Below are positions 23,886-36,675 of a stretch of DNA of 36,675 bases, piece by piece. The stretch is from positions 1 to 36,675 of the forward strand of contig DAOUUU010000009.1 of NCBI GenBank assembly GCA_030667985.1. The letters run 5' to 3'. The notes below the pieces were generated by a model. It saw nothing but the letters and a program-made list of their open reading frames with translations, ran no database searches and was not told the DNA's origin. The position numbers and the translations under genes were made by a program. The stretch is from Candidatus Krumholzibacteriota bacterium (lineage in GTDB: Bacteria > Krumholzibacteriota > Krumholzibacteriia > Krumholzibacteriales > Krumholzibacteriaceae). Each line of letters begins with the position of its first letter. Position 1 is the first letter of the stretch.

Positions 23886-26800
23886 TTAACGGAGCAGCAC
23901 CATCTTTCGCGTCGCGACGCTATTGCTGATGCCGAGCCTGATGAAGTATATCCCGCTCGCGACCGACTCGCCCCTCTGATTCCTGCCGTCCCATTGGACG
24001 CTGTGCCTTCCTGTAGGACAGGCTTCGTCAACAAGCGTCCTCACCTGAGTGCCTCTCACGTCGTAGACCACCAGTGAGACCCTTTTCCTGCTTCCCTCCA
24101 CACCAGGAACGGTAAATGGAATAGTCGTGTTGGGATTAAAAGGATTCGGGTGGTTCTGGTATAGCCTGGCATTGGCGACCGGCACCATGATCTGATCGGT
24201 CTCTATGAAGAGGTCGGGGCTTTCCTCGGCTTCGAGCTTGTAGAGGTATGTGATTCCCTCCTCTACAGATCTATCAACATACTGGACGATTCCCGATCCA
24301 TCGGCGAAAAGATCTCTGCTGAGAAGCCTGTAGTTCGAGTCCGATTCCCTGCGATAGAGGGCCCATCTATCCACTGTGGGCAGCACAAGGCAGTTCAGCT
24401 CGATCGCGCCGCCGATCAACCTGTGAGTAAATGTCATTAGTTCCGCGCTGGTCAGCTGATTGTACCCGTCCCAGCCGGAGTTTGTGACGTTGCCGTGGAA
24501 TCCGTTCCATGCGCTGTAGTCATGGTGCCACGCGCCTTCGAGATCCCAGACATACAAGAAACGGTCCCAGCATGCCACCACGAGCTCGAGGTCGGCGTCC
24601 ATATCGAGATCTCTCACCATCGGCGTTCCACGGATGAAGCCGTTCAAGTAAATCGGGAAACCGGGCAGGTTGGCCCCGCTCATATCCCACGCATTCAGGA
24701 TCCCATCCTCGCAACCGAGCACTATGTCCAGGCTGCCGTCTCCGTTGAGATCGGCGATCGTAGGTGATGATTCGGTCGGTCCACCACCTGTATTGTAGGG
24801 CTGCGGCCATCCGGGCTGTGAGCTGCCGAGATAATCGAATACGTGGCAATAACCGTCCATGCTCGGAATCACGATCTCGAGCTTTCCGTCCCCGGTCAGA
24901 TCGCCCAGTGCTGGTGAACCCATGAAGAAGTTGACGCTGTAGATCCATACCGGCCATCCCGCCATGCAACTGCCGTCATGGTTGAGCCCGTAGATCATGC
25001 CGGAGCTGTTCTGCACTACGACCTCCTGGTGCCCATCACCGTCTATATCCCCCACGACGGGGCTGGCGGATATATTGGCGCCCTCCTCCGCTACCGGCAC
25101 GGGCCATCCGGCCACATAGCTGGCATCGTGGTTCAGGCAATAGATACTGTCGCCGGGAGAGCACAGGACTATCTCCGGAAGTCCGTCCTCATCGATGTCG
25201 GCGAGGGCGGGCGTGGATGTATGCCATCCGAGTGATTCGCTTCCATCGCGGTAGAAGAACGGGCCGTTCGTACTCGGATTACCGTCGCCGTCACGAAGTT
25301 CCGTGCCGTCGTGGTGCCACGCATAGAGTATCCCGTCGATATCGAATGCGAATATCTCAGGATCACCGTCGCCGTCGATATCGGCGGCGGTCGGACTCGC
25401 CCAACAGAGATCGCGCGTATCCTGCGGCCACCCCGGCAGCGTATTTCCGTCATGGTCGAACACATATATCTTTTTCAGACTCCACGAGGCACCGATGATT
25501 TCGTCTCCGGGTTCACCGTCAATTTCGATAAGGGCCAGGGAGGCGGTGAAGTTATCACCCTCGGTGTTGAGTATCCCCCATGTGGCGGGCTGGCCGTCTC
25601 CGTCCCTTACCTCGATCCCGTCGCCATGCAACGCGTAAACATACTCCGCCCCCATGACGACCTCGGGATGGCTGTCGCCGTCGATATCCCCGACAACGGG
25701 GCTGCACGAGCTCTCCCGGCCGAGCTTGATCGGCCACCCCGCAAGCTGCGGTGAACTCGTGCTGATATTTCGTTCTACGCATGGAGCTCCCTCGTTACCG
25801 CACGAATCGATAGTCGTCACTATGTAGTAATATCTGGTGCTCGACAGGAGCCCGTGATCGTTATAGAGCGTGTGGAATACGAGGTCCTTTGTCGCTAGCT
25901 CGTAAGGCCCGCCCGACTGCTCGGAGTGGTAGACCTGGTAGCGATAATGCTCGGTGCTGTCTGGAGGATCCCAAGTAGCGTGTATCTCGTTCGGGCCGAA
26001 GCTCGCGTCGAGGTGCAGGAGATGGGGTGGATCGGGCTCCCTCAGTTCCAGATCGTAGGAATATACACGTCCATAAACGTCGGTTAGCTCGAGATGGAAC
26101 AGGTTCGGGATGAGCATATTCGCTTCAGATAGAACGAATCCGTCGCCATACTCGACTCCCAGCAGCGGAATCTCGTCATAGTCGCTGACCGCATCCACCA
26201 CATTGAGATGGGGCGATAGGCTGCTTATCACTCCCTGGAGTCCCGTCGCAGCGCCCGTACCAAAATTCTTTAACCCGATCTGGAGAAGAAAATCCTCTCC
26301 CGGCTCTATAATACCGTTATTGTTCCCGTAGGGAAGCGTATCGCTCAGCATATTCACATAGAATTCAAACTGCGGAGCATGAGCTTCCAGCGCGAACTTC
26401 TCGGACCATAAACCCCCCGTCGAGTCGCGGATCTCGAGTTCGAACTCGAGGGCCCGCTCGTCAGCGACACTCATATGCACCGTAAACTGGAAACCGTCTG
26501 CGTTCCAGTTGGCCGCACCCTGAGAGACATCCGGGTAGAGAGCCGTGCTGTCGAAAATGGCCACAGTGGTCTCATCGGTCCGCAGGATGGCATAGAGTTT
26601 TTCGGCATCCGCCTGCCCGGTGTTGCGCAGCTTGAGGAACAGGCCTACAGTCTCGCCCGAATCGAGGTTCCCGTCGCCGTTTCCGGTCACACCGTCGGCG
26701 ATTATCCTGTCGTCGATCCTGAGATAGGGATCCAGCTCTTCCTGGACAAGCATCGAATCGAGATAACGGGAGTGGTTGAGACCGGTCACCGTAACATAGA

Positions 26801-28868
26801 TCTTGCCTTCGTCCCGACATAGGAATTCGTTGAACGTGACCGATCCTGTTTCGTCCGTCAGGTCATACGCATAATCATCGCCGTCCTTGTAGAGGCAGAC
26901 GAGGGCTGAATTGACAGGCGATCCGCCGCTAAAAACATCTATGGTTATATCGTTTGGCCCGAACGACGCCGCAGACGGCTTCACTATAGAGAAGGTGCCT
27001 GGCGCGGCCTTGAAGGTGCTTACCTCCGGATCACCGAGATAATTATATATGAAATGGGTCCATCTATCCGCCGTCTCGGATACCGCGCTCGGGGTGTAGG
27101 GTTCCCGCGATTTTGTGAAACACTTGCCGAGCTGCACTACATCGTAATCGAACATCAAGAAATAGTAGTAGTCCAGGTATGGTCTCGAAGCGCTCGGAAA
27201 CGCGGATCGACTCGACCCGGTTGCCGCGAATGCGCCTCCCTCGTCGTTCAACATGAAATACTCGGCGATGCATTTCATGTCGAAGGCGGCGTTGGAACAG
27301 TTCATCAAGTACATCGAGAAAACCGCGTCACCGTTGGTGAGCTCGCTCGCATCGGCATTCAGAATAGTGCCGGTGCCGACCGACATGTTATACGCGTAGC
27401 CGTGGCCAACGTGCAAAACGTGACTGGCTCCGGCGTTCATCGCACCCAAGGCCGATCCCCTCGAAAGATATATGGATCCGGGGAATGAATCACAGGTCTC
27501 ATAATAACGCAAGGTCTCTATGTCCGGATCGTCCTCGAGGTAGAGCCTGTAGATATTATCAGCGATATCGGCTCCATCGAGCCAGATATTGTCTCCCGGA
27601 TTGTAAGGAACCGGGAAAATGATCTCCGCGAGCATCACAAAATCATTCTTCGTGTCATATTCGATCGGAGTGGCATAACCGATCGTCTTGTTCACGAGCA
27701 GTTCCGCTTCCTGGTAGGTAGTGGCCGGCATCCTGCCTATATAGACCTCGCTGTAGATATCAGCCTCGTCACCGGTATCATTGTCGTTATGGAATGCTTC
27801 GCCCCAGAGAGAATCACCGTCCGCGTTCCAGTTACCGTCCAGGCAGGAGAAGTACATATCGGTTGGGATGAACTCGCCCGCAAAGAATGCGACATATCCA
27901 TACCGGGCGGGGATGATCTCCGTGTCTCCACCGAGCAGCACCCATTCGGTCCCCCAATTCGCATAGGCCTCCTGAAGAAAGTTTCGGATCGATTCGGCGC
28001 GGTCGGCGCCGGCACGGTAATTCTGGTCGATCCACTCGACGGTCCTTACGACAGCCGGTACGCCTTTCCTGGTCTTCCATTCCGCAAGACGCTCAAAGAC
28101 GGGCGCCATCTCCTCGTTCGTCACGATGACATAGGAGACTTCGCTCCCCTCCATGCTCGGCAGGTAACTCGGCACAAAGCCCCTATCCGGCGTATCGACT
28201 TCGATATCGTCGAAAATATAGGCTGAGGACTGTTCGGGATTGATCACCATAGAACGGATCTGTTTCTCGGAATCCTCGCGGAAACCGGGAATGTGCCTCT
28301 TGCGGATGACGCTTTCCGTATCGGTCACATCGAATTCAGTCCGAACCACGAGTTCGATTTCTCGATTGAGCGTAAGCCTGCCCGACGAGAGATCGTAGCT
28401 GAAATGGTATACAGCGAAACTTGCGACACGGTATCCCTTGTAATTACTCGTGCCGACATGCCGCACCTTCCATTTCGGGAAGATGACACCGTCTTGTGTC
28501 ACCTCGTCCGCAGCAGCGGTGATTCCTGCCTTGCTTCCGTCTTCTAGGAGATCCCCCTCGAAAACGGCGAGATCGATCGCCGGATCCACCTCGATCATAT
28601 CAAGAATCTCTATATCGTAAGAGGAGACGATCTCTCCCTGCGGCAGGAGAACATTGACGACCCGATAGGGCAGCCCAGGATAATCGAAGTAGTTTAAATG
28701 ATCGAATCCCTTGACGGCGAGAACGACGCCGCCGCTGTCGGAGTCCCTGAATCCCAGATCCGCCGTGTCGACTTCGAGCTTTAGCGAGATCGAGGCTCCT
28801 GACACGACAGCAAACGGTATCGCGATGATCATTGATACGACTACAGAGATACGGAAAATACGACTCAT
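23886..28868 (-). CDS. Large gingipain-like (peptidase C25) protein with FG-GAP repeats and T9SS/FlgD-type C-terminal domain
   Basis: C25 catalytic-type motifs ASHVLHVGHGYAYN and YLMNCSNAAFDMKCIAEYF; seven GDIDGDxxPEIV-type FG-GAP motifs; fibronectin-like segment; C-terminus ARLYQNHPNPFNPNTTIPFTVP...VYDVRGTQVRTLVDEACPTGRHSVQWDGRNQRGESVASGIYFIRL. Confidence 0.92.
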   Translation of the reverse strand: MSRIFRISVVVSMIIAIPFAVVSGASISLKLEVDTADLGFRDSDSGGVVLAVKGFDHLNYFDYPGLPYRVVNVLLPQGEIVSSYDIEILDMIEVDPAIDLAVFEGDLLEDGSKAGITAAADEVTQDGVIFPKWKVRHVGTSNYKGYRVASFAVYHFSYDLSSGRLTLNREIELVVRTEFDVTDTESVIRKRHIPGFREDSEKQIRSMVINPEQSSAYIFDDIEVDTPDRGFVPSYLPSMEGSEVSYVIVTNEEMAPVFERLAEWKTRKGVPAVVRTVEWIDQNYRAGADRAESIRNFLQEAYANWGTEWVLLGGDTEIIPARYGYVAFFAGEFIPTDMYFSCLDGNWNADGDSLWGEAFHNDNDTGDEADIYSEVYIGRMPATTYQEAELLVNKTIGYATPIEYDTKNDFVMLAEIIFPVPYNPGDNIWLDGADIADNIYRLYLEDDPDIETLRYYETCDSFPGSIYLSRGSALGAMNAGASHVLHVGHGYAYNMSVGTGTILNADASELTNGDAVFSMYLMNCSNAAFDMKCIAEYFMLNDEGGAFAATGSSRSAFPSASRPYLDYYYFLMFDYDVVQLGKCFTKSREPYTPSAVSETADRWTHFIYNYLGDPEVSTFKAAPGTFSIVKPSAASFGPNDITIDVFSGGSPVNSALVCLYKDGDDYAYDLTDETGSVTFNEFLCRDEGKIYVTVTGLNHSRYLDSMLVQEELDPYLRIDDRIIADGVTGNGDGNLDSGETVGLFLKLRNTGQADAEKLYAILRTDETTVAIFDSTALYPDVSQGAANWNADGFQFTVHMSVADERALEFELEIRDSTGGLWSEKFALEAHAPQFEFYVNMLSDTLPYGNNNGIIEPGEDFLLQIGLKNFGTGAATGLQGVISSLSPHLNVVDAVSDYDEIPLLGVEYGDGFVLSEANMLIPNLFHLELTDVYGRVYSYDLELREPDPPHLLHLDASFGPNEIHATWDPPDSTEHYRYQVYHSEQSGGPYELATKDLVFHTLYNDHGLLSSTRYYYIVTTIDSCGNEGAPCVERNISTSSPQLAGWPIKLGRESSCSPVVGDIDGDSHPEVVMGAEYVYALHGDGIEVRDGDGQPATWGILNTEGDNFTASLALIEIDGEPGDEIIGASWSLKKIYVFDHDGNTLPGWPQDTRDLCWASPTAADIDGDGDPEIFAFDIDGILYAWHHDGTELRDGDGNPSTNGPFFYRDGSESLGWHTSTPALADIDEDGLPEIVLCSPGDSIYCLNHDASYVAGWPVPVAEEGANISASPVVGDIDGDGHQEVVVQNSSGMIYGLNHDGSCMAGWPVWIYSVNFFMGSPALGDLTGDGKLEIVIPSMDGYCHVFDYLGSSQPGWPQPYNTGGGPTESSPTIADLNGDGSLDIVLGCEDGILNAWDMSGANLPGFPIYLNGFIRGTPMVRDLDMDADLELVVACWDRFLYVWDLEGAWHHDYSAWNGFHGNVTNSGWDGYNQLTSAELMTFTHRLIGGAIELNCLVLPTVDRWALYRRESDSNYRLLSRDLFADGSGIVQYVDRSVEEGITYLYKLEAEESPDLFIETDQIMVPVANARLYQNHPNPFNPNTTIPFTVPGVEGSRKRVSLVVYDVRGTQVRTLVDEACPTGRHSVQWDGRNQRGESVASGIYFIRLGISNSVATRKMVLLR

Positions 28869-31033: not shown

Positions 31034-31357
31034 TCACTCCCCGGCGCACTCTAGAAAGTGCTGGAGCGTAAGGTCGAGAGCCGCGTAGAAATCCTCCTCG
31101 GAACCGACCCGCAATGAACAGGGCGTTCTTTCTCCGATCGAGACGAGAAAGAGTTTCCGGTAGGGAGAGACAGACACTTTGAAACCGCTGTCGGAATCGA
31201 AACGCACCTCAAAGGGAGTCGTCTCGATCCGAACGCCGCCCGGGAAACCGGCGACATCACCGCAAAAGGCGTTAAAGAAGCGCCGCATATCTTCCTGGAT
31301 CAGGCGCTCGGCGAGGGCAAGCGCCTTGTCGAGTCCATCTGCGGTATCCGATTTCAT
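31034..31357 (-). CDS. Small protein of unknown function in ParA operon
   Basis: 107 aa ORF; start lies 3 nt from the upstream gene's stop, suggesting translational coupling. Confidence 0.65.
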   Translation of the reverse strand: MKSDTADGLDKALALAERLIQEDMRRFFNAFCGDVAGFPGGVRIETTPFEVRFDSDSGFKVSVSPYRKLFLVSIGERTPCSLRVGSEEDFYAALDLTLQHFLECAGE

Positions 31358-31360
31358 CTC

Positions 31361-32122
31361 TTAAAGAGCCTTTCGCCGGTGGCTGATCACCTGCAGAACG
31401 TTGGAAACGAGTCCGTCGAAGAACGGATCCTCCGGCGCAGCGCGAACACTCCAGGAAGACCGTATTCCATCCGGCAACGGATAGATCTCGGATGCTCCTG
31501 AATGCCTACCGGATTCGGTGCCACAGACAACATGGAATATAAGCTCACCGGAAGATCTATCTACTACCGATCCGATGATCGGCTGCACAGTCCCGGCATC
31601 AGCCACTATTACAACCGCATCGGGTTTTCCATCACTCACGTCTATCCGGCTGCACTGCTGCCGTACCGCGTCGACATGGCCGGAATCGGATGCCGCGCCA
31701 CAGAGCTCGAATGCTGCCAGGGCGATATTGGGGGAATCCGTCTTTGTTCGGGCAGCAGTGAATCCATGAAAAGACTCTGGCCTTCTGCAGCTTGCGAATT
31801 CGATGCCCGGCTCGATACTACCCGCCACTATGACCGTATCGTCCAGTACTGGCCTCAGGTATCGCGAGGCTTCTATACCGAAGTAATAGCCTATGTTAGG
31901 CAAGCCCGTATCGAATTCGAGCAGTGTGACACCGAGTCCTTTACCGGCCAGTGCGAAGGAGCAGCCGGCAGCGAAATGCGCCCGGTTGATCCGCCCCCGC
32001 TGTGTAACGAGCCAGATATGCGCCCCAGCGGAACGGGGTGCATCCGTCTCCGGTTTCATGCCATGGGACAGAAAAAGATGGGATACGTCGCGAAGATTCT
32101 TTGGTCTGCGTTCAGCAGGCAT
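31361..32122 (-). CDS. MinD/FlhG-like P-loop protein lacking a canonical Walker A motif (putative pseudo-ATPase)
   Basis: IWLVTQRGRINRAHFAAGCSFALAGKGLGVTLLEFDTGLPNIGYYFGIEASRYL aligns by eye to MinD/FlhG GKGGVGKT...NLAxALAxxGKxVLLxDADLGLPNxxxxLGLEPxxxL. Confidence 0.65.
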   Translation of the reverse strand: MPAERRPKNLRDVSHLFLSHGMKPETDAPRSAGAHIWLVTQRGRINRAHFAAGCSFALAGKGLGVTLLEFDTGLPNIGYYFGIEASRYLRPVLDDTVIVAGSIEPGIEFASCRRPESFHGFTAARTKTDSPNIALAAFELCGAASDSGHVDAVRQQCSRIDVSDGKPDAVVIVADAGTVQPIIGSVVDRSSGELIFHVVCGTESGRHSGASEIYPLPDGIRSSWSVRAAPEDPFFDGLVSNVLQVISHRRKAL

Positions 32123-32125
32123 GTG

Positions 32126-33199
32126 TCACACAATCAGCAGCGAGTTTTCCTGTCCGAACTCGTTAAGCACTGAATCGACATTCGCCGGATCCTTGATCCA
32201 GACTCCATCGACGATGAAGCGGTATTCATATTCCCCCGAGTCGAGATGCAGGAGCGCCTTCCAGATGCCATCTTTTTCGTCCCGCTCCATCTTCAGCCCT
32301 TCTCTCGACCAGTTCGTGAATTCTCCGGTCAGGTGGACCGTCTTGGCGTTCGGCGCGTCGATGACGAAGAGTATGCCCTCTTCCACCCTTCGCGGACCGT
32401 GCAGTCTCAACATCCAGCCATCGACATCCTCCGTATCGATCACCGAGACCTTGTTATCGATCTCGCGGGCTAGCGAGAGAAACTCGTTCTTCAATCTCTC
32501 CACCCGTTTCATCCCGAAGATGGAGACACCCCTCAAGGCGGCCTCCTTGTACCTGACCGAATGGCTGATGATCGTGTCCATCAGCACACCGCCGTGTTGA
32601 TTTTCCAGTTCGTAGATTATATCCCTGCAGAAGGTCGTGTGCTTCTCGACGTTTGTCGCGAGGACATGCACGATGATTCTGTGCTTTGTCTCGTACTCGA
32701 GCAAATCCAGTGTTTCCCGCAGTTTTTCGAGGCCCTGCAATGAGAAGAAGCTTGGATCCAGTGGTATAACCACCTCCGACGCGGCGATCAGGGCGTTAAA
32801 GGTCAGCAATCCCACATTGGGAGGCGAATCGATTATCGCGTAATCGTAATCGTTGGAGACTCTCGTCAGCTTCGCGGCAAGTCTCGTCTCGCGCGCCGGT
32901 TTTCCGGATAATTCCTGTTCCACAGCGCTCAAAACGGCCGACGACGGCACGACAGACAACCTCTCATCGATGGGAAACGCCGCATCTTCGACCCTCACTC
33001 TCGGATTGATGAGCAGATCATACGTGTTGTAATCGAGTTCTTCCGAAACGATATCGAGACCGATCGATGCATGCGACTGCGGGTCTAGATCGACCAATAG
33101 TACTTTCTTGTCCATCTCTCCAAAGGCAGCGGCGAGATTGATGGCAACGGTCGTCTTACCACATCCGCCCTTCTGGTTTATCACTGAGATGGTACGCAT
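32126..33199 (-). CDS. ParA-family ATPase fused to a C-terminal CBM48/AMPK-beta-type glycogen-binding domain
   Basis: N-terminus MRTISVINQKGGCGKTTVAINLAAAFGEMDKKVLLVDLDPQSHAS, IIDSPPNVGLLTFNAL; C-terminus ILFVIDAPNAKTVHLTGEFTNWSREGLKMERDEKDGIWKALLHLDSGEYEYRFIVDGVWIKDPAN. Confidence 0.92.
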   Translation of the reverse strand: MRTISVINQKGGCGKTTVAINLAAAFGEMDKKVLLVDLDPQSHASIGLDIVSEELDYNTYDLLINPRVRVEDAAFPIDERLSVVPSSAVLSAVEQELSGKPARETRLAAKLTRVSNDYDYAIIDSPPNVGLLTFNALIAASEVVIPLDPSFFSLQGLEKLRETLDLLEYETKHRIIVHVLATNVEKHTTFCRDIIYELENQHGGVLMDTIISHSVRYKEAALRGVSIFGMKRVERLKNEFLSLAREIDNKVSVIDTEDVDGWMLRLHGPRRVEEGILFVIDAPNAKTVHLTGEFTNWSREGLKMERDEKDGIWKALLHLDSGEYEYRFIVDGVWIKDPANVDSVLNEFGQENSLLIV

Positions 33200-33513: not shown

Positions 33514-33936
33514 TCAGTAGAGGAGCAGCGCTACGAGCAGCCCCAACGCAAATCCCCCCCAGACTTCAGCCCATGTATGCCCGATCAGCTCCCTGAGACT
33601 CTCGGCGTTGATATGGTGCGTCTCCTTGAACTTCTCGATGATCTCGTTCAGAACACGCGCCTGATTGCCCACCTCCTGCCTCAGGCCGGTCGCCTCGAAT
33701 ATGAAATAGAGGCTGAATATCAAAGATATTCCGAATAGGGGGGACTTGACCCCCTGATATACGGCGACGCCGACCGTAAGCGCGGTCACGACCGCCGTAT
33801 GCGAGCTCGGCATACCCCCGGTATCGAGCACGCGAAGAGGGTTGAAGGTCCTGTTCCGGATCAGATCGATGACGACCTTGAGAACCTGAGCGGATAATCC
33901 GCTGACAAGCGCCGCTATGCCGATCTTATGGATCAC
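33514..33936 (-). CDS. Divergent PAP2 family (YuiD-like) membrane protein
   Basis: VLDTGGMPSSHTAVVTALTVGVA, RQEVGNQARVLNEIIEK, LRELIGHTWAEVWGGFALG. Confidence 0.92.
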   Translation of the reverse strand: MIHKIGIAALVSGLSAQVLKVVIDLIRNRTFNPLRVLDTGGMPSSHTAVVTALTVGVAVYQGVKSPLFGISLIFSLYFIFEATGLRQEVGNQARVLNEIIEKFKETHHINAESLRELIGHTWAEVWGGFALGLLVALLLY

Positions 33937-33963: not shown

Positions 33964-35613
33964 TCAGATCTCCCCGATATACCATTCGTGAAGGTTATGA
34001 TACATGCTTATCGCGTTCGGCTTAGCGCCTTTGAATTCATTGCTGAGGGCGCTCAAAGCAGTGGTCACATAGAGGAAAGTGTAGGGCTGGTCCTCGTAGA
34101 TCAACTTCTGCACTTCGTAGAAGAGGGGTTTCGCCTTCTCGAAATCGAGCATCTTACAGGCGCGGGCATTCAGGCTGTCCACCGCCTCGTTGCAGTAATC
34201 GATCCTGTTATACCCTCCGGCTCTTCGCGCCTCGCAGGACCAGATCGGAGCCAGATCCGCCTTGGTCGATGCCCGCCAGGCATTCACCATCGCCTGAAAA
34301 TCGCCCGATTTGATCTTGTCGAGCATCACCGTCCATTCGAGGACGACCGGATTCATCTTTACCCCTACTGTCCGCAGCATCTCCTGGACCATGATCTGCG
34401 TATCCATCCGGATCTGGTTGCCGTAATTGGTGATGAGATCGAACTCGAAACGCTTGCCGTCCCGGTCGAGCCAACCGTCCCCGTCCCGATCTATGAATCC
34501 TTCCCTGGCGAGCATCTTCCGGGCGAGCTCCGAATCATGCGGAAGCGCCGCGATATCGGGATTGTAGGCCCAGATAATCGGTGGGAATGGGCTCGAGCAT
34601 TCCTCGGCGAAACCATAGTAAAGGTTGTCGATTATAAGCTTACGATCGATAGCGTGACTCAGCGCCCTTCTCACATTCCGATTCTCGAAGGGCTCGTGCG
34701 CTCCGTTCCAGCCGATGTAGTTATAGTTTCGCGTCGGAAAATCCAATATCTGCAGCTCGGGATGGTTCTCCTTCAGTCCCTGGACTTCACTGGGAGGAAG
34801 ACTCTCCATGCAGTCGATCTCGCCCGCTTTCAGTTGCGTAAGCAGGGTCGTCTGATCCGGGACGATCTTAAAGATGACTTTTTCCAGATAGGGTTTCCCC
34901 TTCTCGTAGTACCGCTCATTGGGAACCAGTGTGAGAGATTGACCGCGGACCCAGAGCTCTATCTTGAATGGTCCGTTTGTTGGAAGCTCAACGACCGGTA
35001 TTGACTTGATCTGTTCGGGCGGCACCTCTTCGATTATATGCTTCGGCAATATCACCCCGTCATTGGCGTCCATGAGCTGGTAGGGATACACTTCACTGAA
35101 ATGAAAAACGGCCGTCCGATCGTCCAGCGCGACGACGCTGTCAATCCCGTCCTTGAGATGCCTGCTCGCCCAGAGCACCTTCGGATCCTTTTGCGCTCTG
35201 AAAGTAGCCACCACATCATGGGCGGTCACCTGGACTCCGTCGCTCCAGTAGACGTCGTCTCTCAGGTGAAATGTCAGCTGCTTCCTGTTATCGCTGAATT
35301 CGTACGACTCCGCGAGCCTCGGCTTGAAGGTCAACAGGTCGGACTGCTCCTCGAGAAGCTCGAGAAAGAGCTGCTTGTACACATCCCTGGCATGCGCATC
35401 GGTCGTGGACATCGGATTCAGGCCCTCGAAATCGCTGATCTCGCCGATAACAAGTGTCCCTCGACGGGTCACCGATGAATCATTGCCTGTACAGGAATGG
35501 AAAGAAACGAGGAACGAGAGAATCAGGATGATATTCAATGTCGTACAGGAAATCCTTCCCCCAGCCATTTCAAAACCTTCTTTCATGCATGTCCCGGTAT
35601 CTTTACCTTGCAT
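33964..35613 (-). CDS. ABC transporter substrate-binding lipoprotein, family 5 (peptide/nickel type); start may be 35586
   Basis: Lipobox LVSFHSCTG; YEFSDNRKQLTFHLRDDVYWSDGVQVTAHDVVATFR; NVRRALSHAIDRKLIIDNLYYGFAEECSSPFPP. Confidence 0.93.
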   Translation of the reverse strand: MQGKDTGTCMKEGFEMAGGRISCTTLNIILILSFLVSFHSCTGNDSSVTRRGTLVIGEISDFEGLNPMSTTDAHARDVYKQLFLELLEEQSDLLTFKPRLAESYEFSDNRKQLTFHLRDDVYWSDGVQVTAHDVVATFRAQKDPKVLWASRHLKDGIDSVVALDDRTAVFHFSEVYPYQLMDANDGVILPKHIIEEVPPEQIKSIPVVELPTNGPFKIELWVRGQSLTLVPNERYYEKGKPYLEKVIFKIVPDQTTLLTQLKAGEIDCMESLPPSEVQGLKENHPELQILDFPTRNYNYIGWNGAHEPFENRNVRRALSHAIDRKLIIDNLYYGFAEECSSPFPPIIWAYNPDIAALPHDSELARKMLAREGFIDRDGDGWLDRDGKRFEFDLITNYGNQIRMDTQIMVQEMLRTVGVKMNPVVLEWTVMLDKIKSGDFQAMVNAWRASTKADLAPIWSCEARRAGGYNRIDYCNEAVDSLNARACKMLDFEKAKPLFYEVQKLIYEDQPYTFLYVTTALSALSNEFKGAKPNAISMYHNLHEWYIGEI

Positions 35614-35675: not shown

Positions 35676-36675
35676 GTGGTCAAAACCGGTTGTGACATCC
35701 TCGCGAAAAGCGCGCGAACGCGGCTCAAGGAGAGCCGTGTCGGGCTTCTGGCCAATCCCGCCTCCCTGACATCGAAACTCGTCCATCTGAGCAAGGCCCT
35801 CACCGAACAACGGATCAGGCTCGAATGCATCTTCGGCCCCCAGCACGGCTATAGGGGCGAGACCCAGGCGAACATGATCGAGTGGCAGGGCTACCTCCAC
35901 CCCACACTCGGGATACCGGTCTATTCACTCTACGGTGAGAAGCGGGAACCGGACCGCTTCATGATCCAGGATCTCGACACACTCGTCGTAGATCTTCCCG
36001 ATGTGGGCGCCCGGCCCTACACCTATCTCTGGACCGCGGTGATCATGATGAAGGCATGCGCAGCCGAAGGCGTCACCGTTACGGTCTGCGACCGGCCCAA
36101 TCCAATAGGAGGATCGGCTGTGGAAGGCCCGATGCTCACCCAGGATCACACCTCCTTCGTCGGGCTCTATCCACTGATCATGCGGCACGGCCTGACGATC
36201 GGAGAGGCGATGAATCTCGTCAACGAACAAGACGGCATCGGCTGCAAACTGAGAATAATCCGGATGAAGGGCTGGGACAGAGAGATGTTCTTCGACGAGA
36301 CCGGACAGCCGTGGATCATGCCTTCACCCAATATCCCGACGACCGAGACGGCTCTACTCTATCCCGGTATGGTCCTGATGGAAGGAACTAACCTCTCCGA
36401 GGGCCGCGGCACAACGAAACCCTTCGAACTGGTAGGCGCCCCCTGGATCGAGCCGGAGAAATTTGCCCGGAAACTCTCCTCCGCCGGGCTCGAGGGAGTC
36501 CTGTTCAGACCGGTCCACTTCGAACCGGCCTGGGACAAATACCGGGGAAACACCTGTGGAGGAGTTCAGATACACGTTACCAGGAGAAAGGTGTTTCAGC
36601 CGGTCAGGTGCGCCGTCACAATACTCGACGCCGCCGCGTCGGTCTATCCCGGGGAATTCTCCTGGAGCGAACCGC
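35676..36675 (+). CDS. namZ: NamZ-like exo-beta-N-acetylmuramidase (DUF1343), partial, runs off window end
   Basis: GTG start after AAAAAGG; own translation VVKTGCDILAKSARTRLKESRVGLLANPASL...IFGPQHGYRGE...GIPVYSLYGEKREP...LVVDLPDVGARPYTYLWT...VCDRPNPIGGSAVEGPM...HGLTIGEAMNLVN...MEGTNLSEGRGTTKPFELVGAPW. Absent from the supplied ORF track. Confidence 0.9.
   Translation, partial: MVKTGCDILAKSARTRLKESRVGLLANPASLTSKLVHLSKALTEQRIRLECIFGPQHGYRGETQANMIEWQGYLHPTLGIPVYSLYGEKREPDRFMIQDLDTLVVDLPDVGARPYTYLWTAVIMMKACAAEGVTVTVCDRPNPIGGSAVEGPMLTQDHTSFVGLYPLIMRHGLTIGEAMNLVNEQDGIGCKLRIIRMKGWDREMFFDETGQPWIMPSPNIPTTETALLYPGMVLMEGTNLSEGRGTTKPFELVGAPWIEPEKFARKLSSAGLEGVLFRPVHFEPAWDKYRGNTCGGVQIHVTRRKVFQPVRCAVTILDAAASVYPGEFSWSEP

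Follow-up and report, generated by a model that had tools for sequence, protein, structure and literature searches.

A ParA-type ATPase fused to a CBM48 domain and its predicted pseudo-ATPase partner, a candidate glucan-positioning pair of Krumholzibacteriota

Known cargoes of ParA-type ATPases range from chromosomes and plasmids to carboxysomes, flagella and chemoreceptor arrays. In the McdA/McdB system, an orphan ParA acts together with a small divergent partner to position a metabolic body; McdA carries no carbohydrate domain, McdB has no ParA fold, and the cargo is a protein shell. A tie between a MinD/ParA-family protein and polysaccharide has been described for BcsQ (PMC9178275), a cellulose secretion ATPase that goes with BcsR. 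Our search of the open-access literature turned up neither a ParA that carries a carbohydrate-binding domain nor any work on ParA-driven or otherwise active positioning of bacterial glycogen. Here we describe a locus that shares features with each of these systems and with the CBM48 of the AMPK beta subunit. The window, that is the whole stretch of DNA analysed, comprises 36,675 nucleotides of a Krumholzibacteriota genome (G000), and the genes concerned all lie on its reverse strand:

31034..31357 (-): orphan protein of 107 aa, third gene of a tight run in families f1 and f2; similar short ORFs occur at f7 loci
31361..32122 (-): P2, 253 aa, with an N-terminal basic and hydrophobic motif (RRPKNLRDVSHLFLS) followed by a ParA/MinD-like fold without a P-loop (a predicted pseudo-ATPase)
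32126..33199 (-): ParA-CBM48 fusion, 357 aa, ATG start; ParA 1-250, linker 251-265, CBM48 266-357
32129..32404 (-): CBM48/AMPK1_CBM domain of the fusion, residues 266-357, with the glucan-contact equivalents W297, R327, W334 and N352
33514..33936 (-): DUF212 (divergent PAP2 family) membrane protein, PF02681, E 2.6e-38
33964..35613 (-): extracellular solute-binding protein of family 5, a neighbour in f1, f2, f7 and f8

An earlier note on this DNA had placed a ParA fused to a CBM48 at 32126-33199, and both the domain call and the coordinates agree with Pfam and with solved structures. The front of the protein is a complete ParA domain, which shares with the ParA/Soj partition ATPases the deviant Walker A (KGGCGKTT), the Walker A' motif DxDPQ (here DLDPQ) and DSPP. 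Residues 1-174 match Pfam AAA_31 (E 7.8e-50), and the solved structures nearest to residues 2-247 are ParA/Soj chains (E 4.6e-39), with McdA also among the relatives. The back of the protein is matched by AMPK1_CBM PF16561 over residues 284-355 (46.0 bits against a cut-off of 26.8) and by CBM_48 PF02922 over residues 273-331 (35.8 bits against 22.4), and the solved structure nearest to residues 285-355 is AMPK beta-1 (E 1.3e-8). No C-terminal membrane helix was found in the fusion. By these matches, the N-terminal domain is a member of the ParA/MinD ATPase superfamily and the tail is a true CBM48.

Conservation at the sequence level supports an ATPase-competent fusion: the signature K10, the catalytic K15 and the Walker A' and Walker B aspartates D37, D39 and D124 are invariant in 57/57 homologues. 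Positions 216 and 218 belong to the part aligned to the 'NVRLSE' stretch of Soj, and the basic residues found there (R or K at 216 in 56/57 homologues, a basic residue at 218 in 57/57) are compatible with ParA-type DNA binding. Over 57 copies the mean entropy is 1.38 bits for the CBM48, 1.42 for the ParA domain and 2.42 for the linker, so that CBM48 and ATPase are equally well conserved and the linker is less so.

Unlike the ParA/Soj ATPases, the fusion carries its C-terminal CBM48 and appears to be partnered by a pseudo-ParA instead of a ParB. The earlier note saw no ParB and no glycogen enzyme in the vicinity, which holds for the main ORFs of the window, and because no ParB adjoins the fusion among these ORFs, the system is, as far as gene content tells, not ParABS. 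A canonical ParA-ParB pair is encoded in the same genome on contig C11, which led us to reject the fusion as the chromosomal Soj; the glycogen synthase of this genome lies on contig C94. Judged by its score of 53 bits against the BcsQ model TIGR03371, far below the cut-off of 157.85, the fusion is not BcsQ either. Moreover, BcsQ has no CBM, the operon in the window has no cellulose synthase, and no bcsA-like gene was found among the neighbours scanned.

We surveyed 80 genomes of the phylum, 46 of them of high quality, which belong to one class and eight families (f1-f8), using a search profile built from the fusion copies of 18 relatives. The full-length fusion was detected in 62/80 genomes, including 38/46 of high quality, and nearly always in a single copy; nearly all of the 39 relatives searched first carry it at full length (residues 1-357 or nearly) with 42-71% identity. 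In a gene tree of 57 copies every family with at least two tips is monophyletic, the f1 node being weakly supported, and since the copies group by family the fusion gene looks vertically inherited. A one-off fusion or a misassembly is ruled out by the same 1-357 architecture in dozens of independent assemblies, single-contig genomes included. As to other sources, a phage origin was rejected, the viral contigs having no ParA-CBM48 and their matches stopping at or before residue 271. A plasmid origin was likewise rejected, as far as the annotated matches show: all plasmid matches to the CBM part fall in isoamylase-type set domains, in an amylase or in stretches that carry no annotation. We describe the fusion for this one phylum and do not claim its absence elsewhere. 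One genome, a single contig of 4.3 Mb (G036), holds two diverged ParA-CBM48/P2 copies (C1 960939-962012 and 1789209-1790282), and its usual DUF212 locus is empty.

The best solved relative of the fusion tail is the CBM48 of the AMPK beta subunit, in which W100, K126, W133 and N150 (AMPK-beta1 numbering) are reported to be critical for glycogen binding (PMC4032982; PMC2642990). Alignment to 1z0n equates these residues with W297, R327, W334 and N352 of the fusion; W297, W334 and N352 do not vary among the homologues, and 56/57 of them have R or K at position 327. The earlier note had held that a loss of the glucan-contact residues would speak against its reading. No such loss is seen, all four positions (K126 as R or K) being retained in 62/64 fused copies, and the glucan site of the CBM48 is thereby supported as intact at the sequence level. 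As a control, 30/39 other AMPK1_CBM domains in the same genomes also keep all four contacts; since the contacts are this common in other copies, their retention fits glucan binding, for which it is necessary, but is not specific to it and does not prove it. The fusion differs from AMPK beta in that its tail sits on a bacterial ParA and not on the scaffold of a kinase complex, and in that the equivalent of K126 is usually R. AMPK1_CBM domains are abundant across the phylum, with 2-11 matches per genome. The genome of the window has four further ones, at L069 (contig C8; 8637-11537) and L070 (contig C53; 5266-7056), hosted by one large protein, two short lipoprotein-like proteins and one protein of 596 aa, and some of them have no equivalent of W133.

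The earlier note had taken the protein for a lone fusion; instead, it is the product of a phylum-wide gene with a conserved partner, the predicted pseudo-ATPase P2 at 31361-32122, whose gene begins three bases past that of ParA-CBM48. P2 has no Pfam or NCBIfam match. It lies directly downstream of the fusion at 54/60 loci, the exceptions being four f6 loci, where a divergent ORF shows the same N-terminal motif by eye, one f7 genome in which the region has decayed (G033) and one with a weak match (G043). The protein evolves fast and keeps its N-terminal motif, a set of basic residues followed by [IL]xx[IV][AS]H[LH][FY][LIF]. ParA partner proteins in general contact ParA via positively charged N-termini (PMC10241942), and the ParB of the same genome, which starts VKRKVLGRGLEALIS, has a layout that resembles the P2 N-terminus.

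An AlphaFold2 model of P2 (pLDDT 83.9, pTM 0.82) found MinD, FleN, FlhG and ParA as its best solved matches in Foldseek, and BcsQ was also matched; against the MinD structure 1hyq the probability is 1.0, with E 3.7e-5, TM 0.52-0.56 and 14% identity. hhalign aligned the decayed TQRGRINRAHFA of P2 with NQKGGCGKTTVA, the Walker A of ParA (E 4e-4, with a probability of only 34%). Because of the MinD/ParA-like predicted fold and of this alignment on the Walker A, P2 is most likely a pseudo-ParA. As a ParA/MinD fold that has lost its P-loop and is encoded beside a functional partner, it resembles the TadZ/CpaE-type ParA relatives with decayed ATPase motifs; no sequence relation between them and P2 was detected. 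The f3 homologues of P2 (L057/L058) keep DLDP and a KAD/KSD remnant at the former P-loop, and seem to stand midway in the decay from ParA to pseudo-ATPase. A P2 of 641 aa in L055 crosses a run of masked N, and the apparent fusion there is not to be trusted.

Four loci lack both ParA-CBM48 and P2 although the genes to either side are kept. G065 has all of the f5 neighbourhood but the pair (SurA, DUF212, secreted protein, Wzy, GT4 and WecA-like genes), and in the genomes G075 and G076, as at a third locus of G036, the metalloprotease gene directly follows DUF212. In G033, P2 has decayed while the fusion persists. The gene arrangement supports ParA-CBM48 and P2 as a unit, with a pairing that looks obligate.

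DUF212 lies immediately upstream of the fusion at 48/59 loci and co-occurs with it (Fisher p = 1.7e-5). We nonetheless rejected it as a core partner, as it persists at loci without the pair and f3 lacks it; it is probably a neighbour with no core part. Most genomes of the phylum have two DUF212 (YuiD-like) paralogues, here 33514-33936 and G000:C44:18497-18889, of which only the better-scoring one adjoins ParA-CBM48. The order of genes in f1 and f2 (solute-binding protein, DUF212, ParA-CBM48, P2, a 110-aa orphan and an M10-type metalloprotease) is, by inference, the ancestral one, and we do not count the family 5 solute-binding protein, an ancestral neighbour, as a component of the system. The 107-aa orphan at 31034-31357 has no Pfam or NCBIfam match.

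Two further contexts are found in other families. At about 21 f5 and f6 loci, DUF212, ParA-CBM48 and P2 (in f5 with a secreted protein added) are followed just downstream by a Wzy_C ligase/polymerase, a GT4 and a WecA-type Glycos_transf_4. In f7, the genes after the fusion of G033 encode a stand-alone CBM48, two glycogen-synthase-like glycosyltransferases, of which one is a GT4, a GH57 branching enzyme and an alpha-glucan phosphorylase; after one of the two G036 copies come P2, the stand-alone CBM48 again and part of a synthase gene. The f5/f6 contexts point to polysaccharide at large and the f7 context to alpha-glucan in particular, and the f7 glycogen link may go back to a single relocation. 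The stand-alone CBM48 proteins of f7, 111-114 aa in length and encoded directly upstream of the glycogen-synthase-like genes (L054 10000-10341, L056 10866-11198), are possible glycogen-targeting subunits.

The reading that we favour, tentatively and as somewhat less likely than not, is a ParA-type system for positioning or partitioning that is made up of two proteins, ParA-CBM48 and P2, and has alpha-1,4-glucan as its cargo, most probably in the form of glycogen particles or of enzymes bound to them. In such a system, ATP would allow the ParA domain to dimerise and to bind DNA non-specifically via its conserved basic residues, while the CBM48 tail would hold the glucan. P2, predicted to be incapable of the usual ATP binding, would engage ParA by its basic and hydrophobic N-terminal peptide and, in the manner of a ParB-type partner, would either stimulate the hydrolysis of ATP or gate the formation of the dimer. 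The outcome would be an even distribution or inheritance of glycogen, or else a glucan-dependent control of the ATPase. Glucan binding, DNA binding, the role of P2 as an activator, glycogen as the cargo and the positioning outcome are all steps that we infer. It is doubtful, though quite possible, that the pair represents a new class in which a ParA binds glycogen cargo directly via a fused CBM48 under the control of a pseudo-ParA partner, and thereby actively governs the placement and inheritance of storage glycogen across the phylum. Several observations count against glycogen positioning. To our knowledge, the known ParA systems hold their cargo via the partner and not by ParA itself. Glycogen synthase shows no significant link to the fusion, GlgA being present in 53/62 genomes with it against 12/18 without it (Fisher p = 0.09), a result on which we dropped co-occurrence as proof of function. 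The loci of most lineages have no glycogen genes, P2 has decayed in G033 although the fusion is still there, and G036, with its two fusion copies, has no GlgA or phosphorylase above threshold. The suggestion of the earlier note, a ParA that positions glycogen or is regulated by glucan, thus stands in part: the conserved contact residues and the glycogen neighbours in f7 speak for it, while the presence of the fusion does not track glycogen synthase, most loci are without glycogen genes and two families lean towards surface polysaccharide.

In another reading, the CBM48 would be a mere E-set (Ig-like) domain for protein interaction or dimer stabilisation, and ParA and P2 would position an unrelated cargo. 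The phylum has numerous AMPK1_CBM domains, many of them in envelope proteins that are large or resemble lipoproteins and in which a structural role is possible; this is in line with such a reading, as is the fact that the contact residues match the family-level consensus; yet both contact tryptophans and the asparagine are invariant and R327 is R or K phylum-wide, while W133 is gone from some of the other copies in the same genome, and we regard the structural reading as rather unlikely. The pair might instead act in the manner of BcsQ, localising or gating a Wzy-type surface-polysaccharide machine at the inner membrane, with a glucan or glycan signal in the cytoplasm being sensed by the CBM48. 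The f5/f6 clusters favour this role, together with a weak GNVR (Wzz-type) match at one f6 locus and the precedent of BcsQ, a ParA/MinD-family protein of the cell pole without which cellulose is not made (PMC9178275). Against it, the Wzy cluster is intact in G065 without the pair, f1, f2, f4 and f7 have the pair without the cluster, Wzy products are made outside the cytoplasm, beyond the reach of a cytoplasmic CBM48, and the CBM48 contacts are of the alpha-1,4-glucan type, which makes such a role unlikely in our judgement. A metabolic sensor, finally, in which glucan on the CBM48 would allosterically shift the ATPase or dimer state of ParA and P2 or a target gene would read this out in a FleN-like way, can draw on FleN, a regulator of the same superfamily, among the top fold matches of P2, and on the allosteric inhibition of AMPK by branched glucan bound to its CBM (PMC2642990); no conserved transcription factor or kinase adjoins the pair at the loci compared, and we consider a sensor improbable. 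If the pair does place or sense glycogen, a polysaccharide would join the list of ParA cargoes, and an active division of the energy store between daughter cells would become directly testable. ParA-CBM48 and P2 also add what appears to be a clear pair of catalytic ATPase and pseudo-ATPase to the ParA superfamily.

Two other genes of the window deserve mention. At 23886-28868 lies a gingipain-type Peptidase_C25 of 1660 aa with FG-GAP repeats and a FlgD-Ig C-terminus, an architecture usual for proteins that are secreted by way of a sorting domain; it is conserved near the locus in several families. At 35676-36674, a NamZ exo-beta-N-acetylmuramidase adjoins the gene of the solute-binding protein; the two are kept together in f1 and f2 and may form a peptidoglycan recycling unit.
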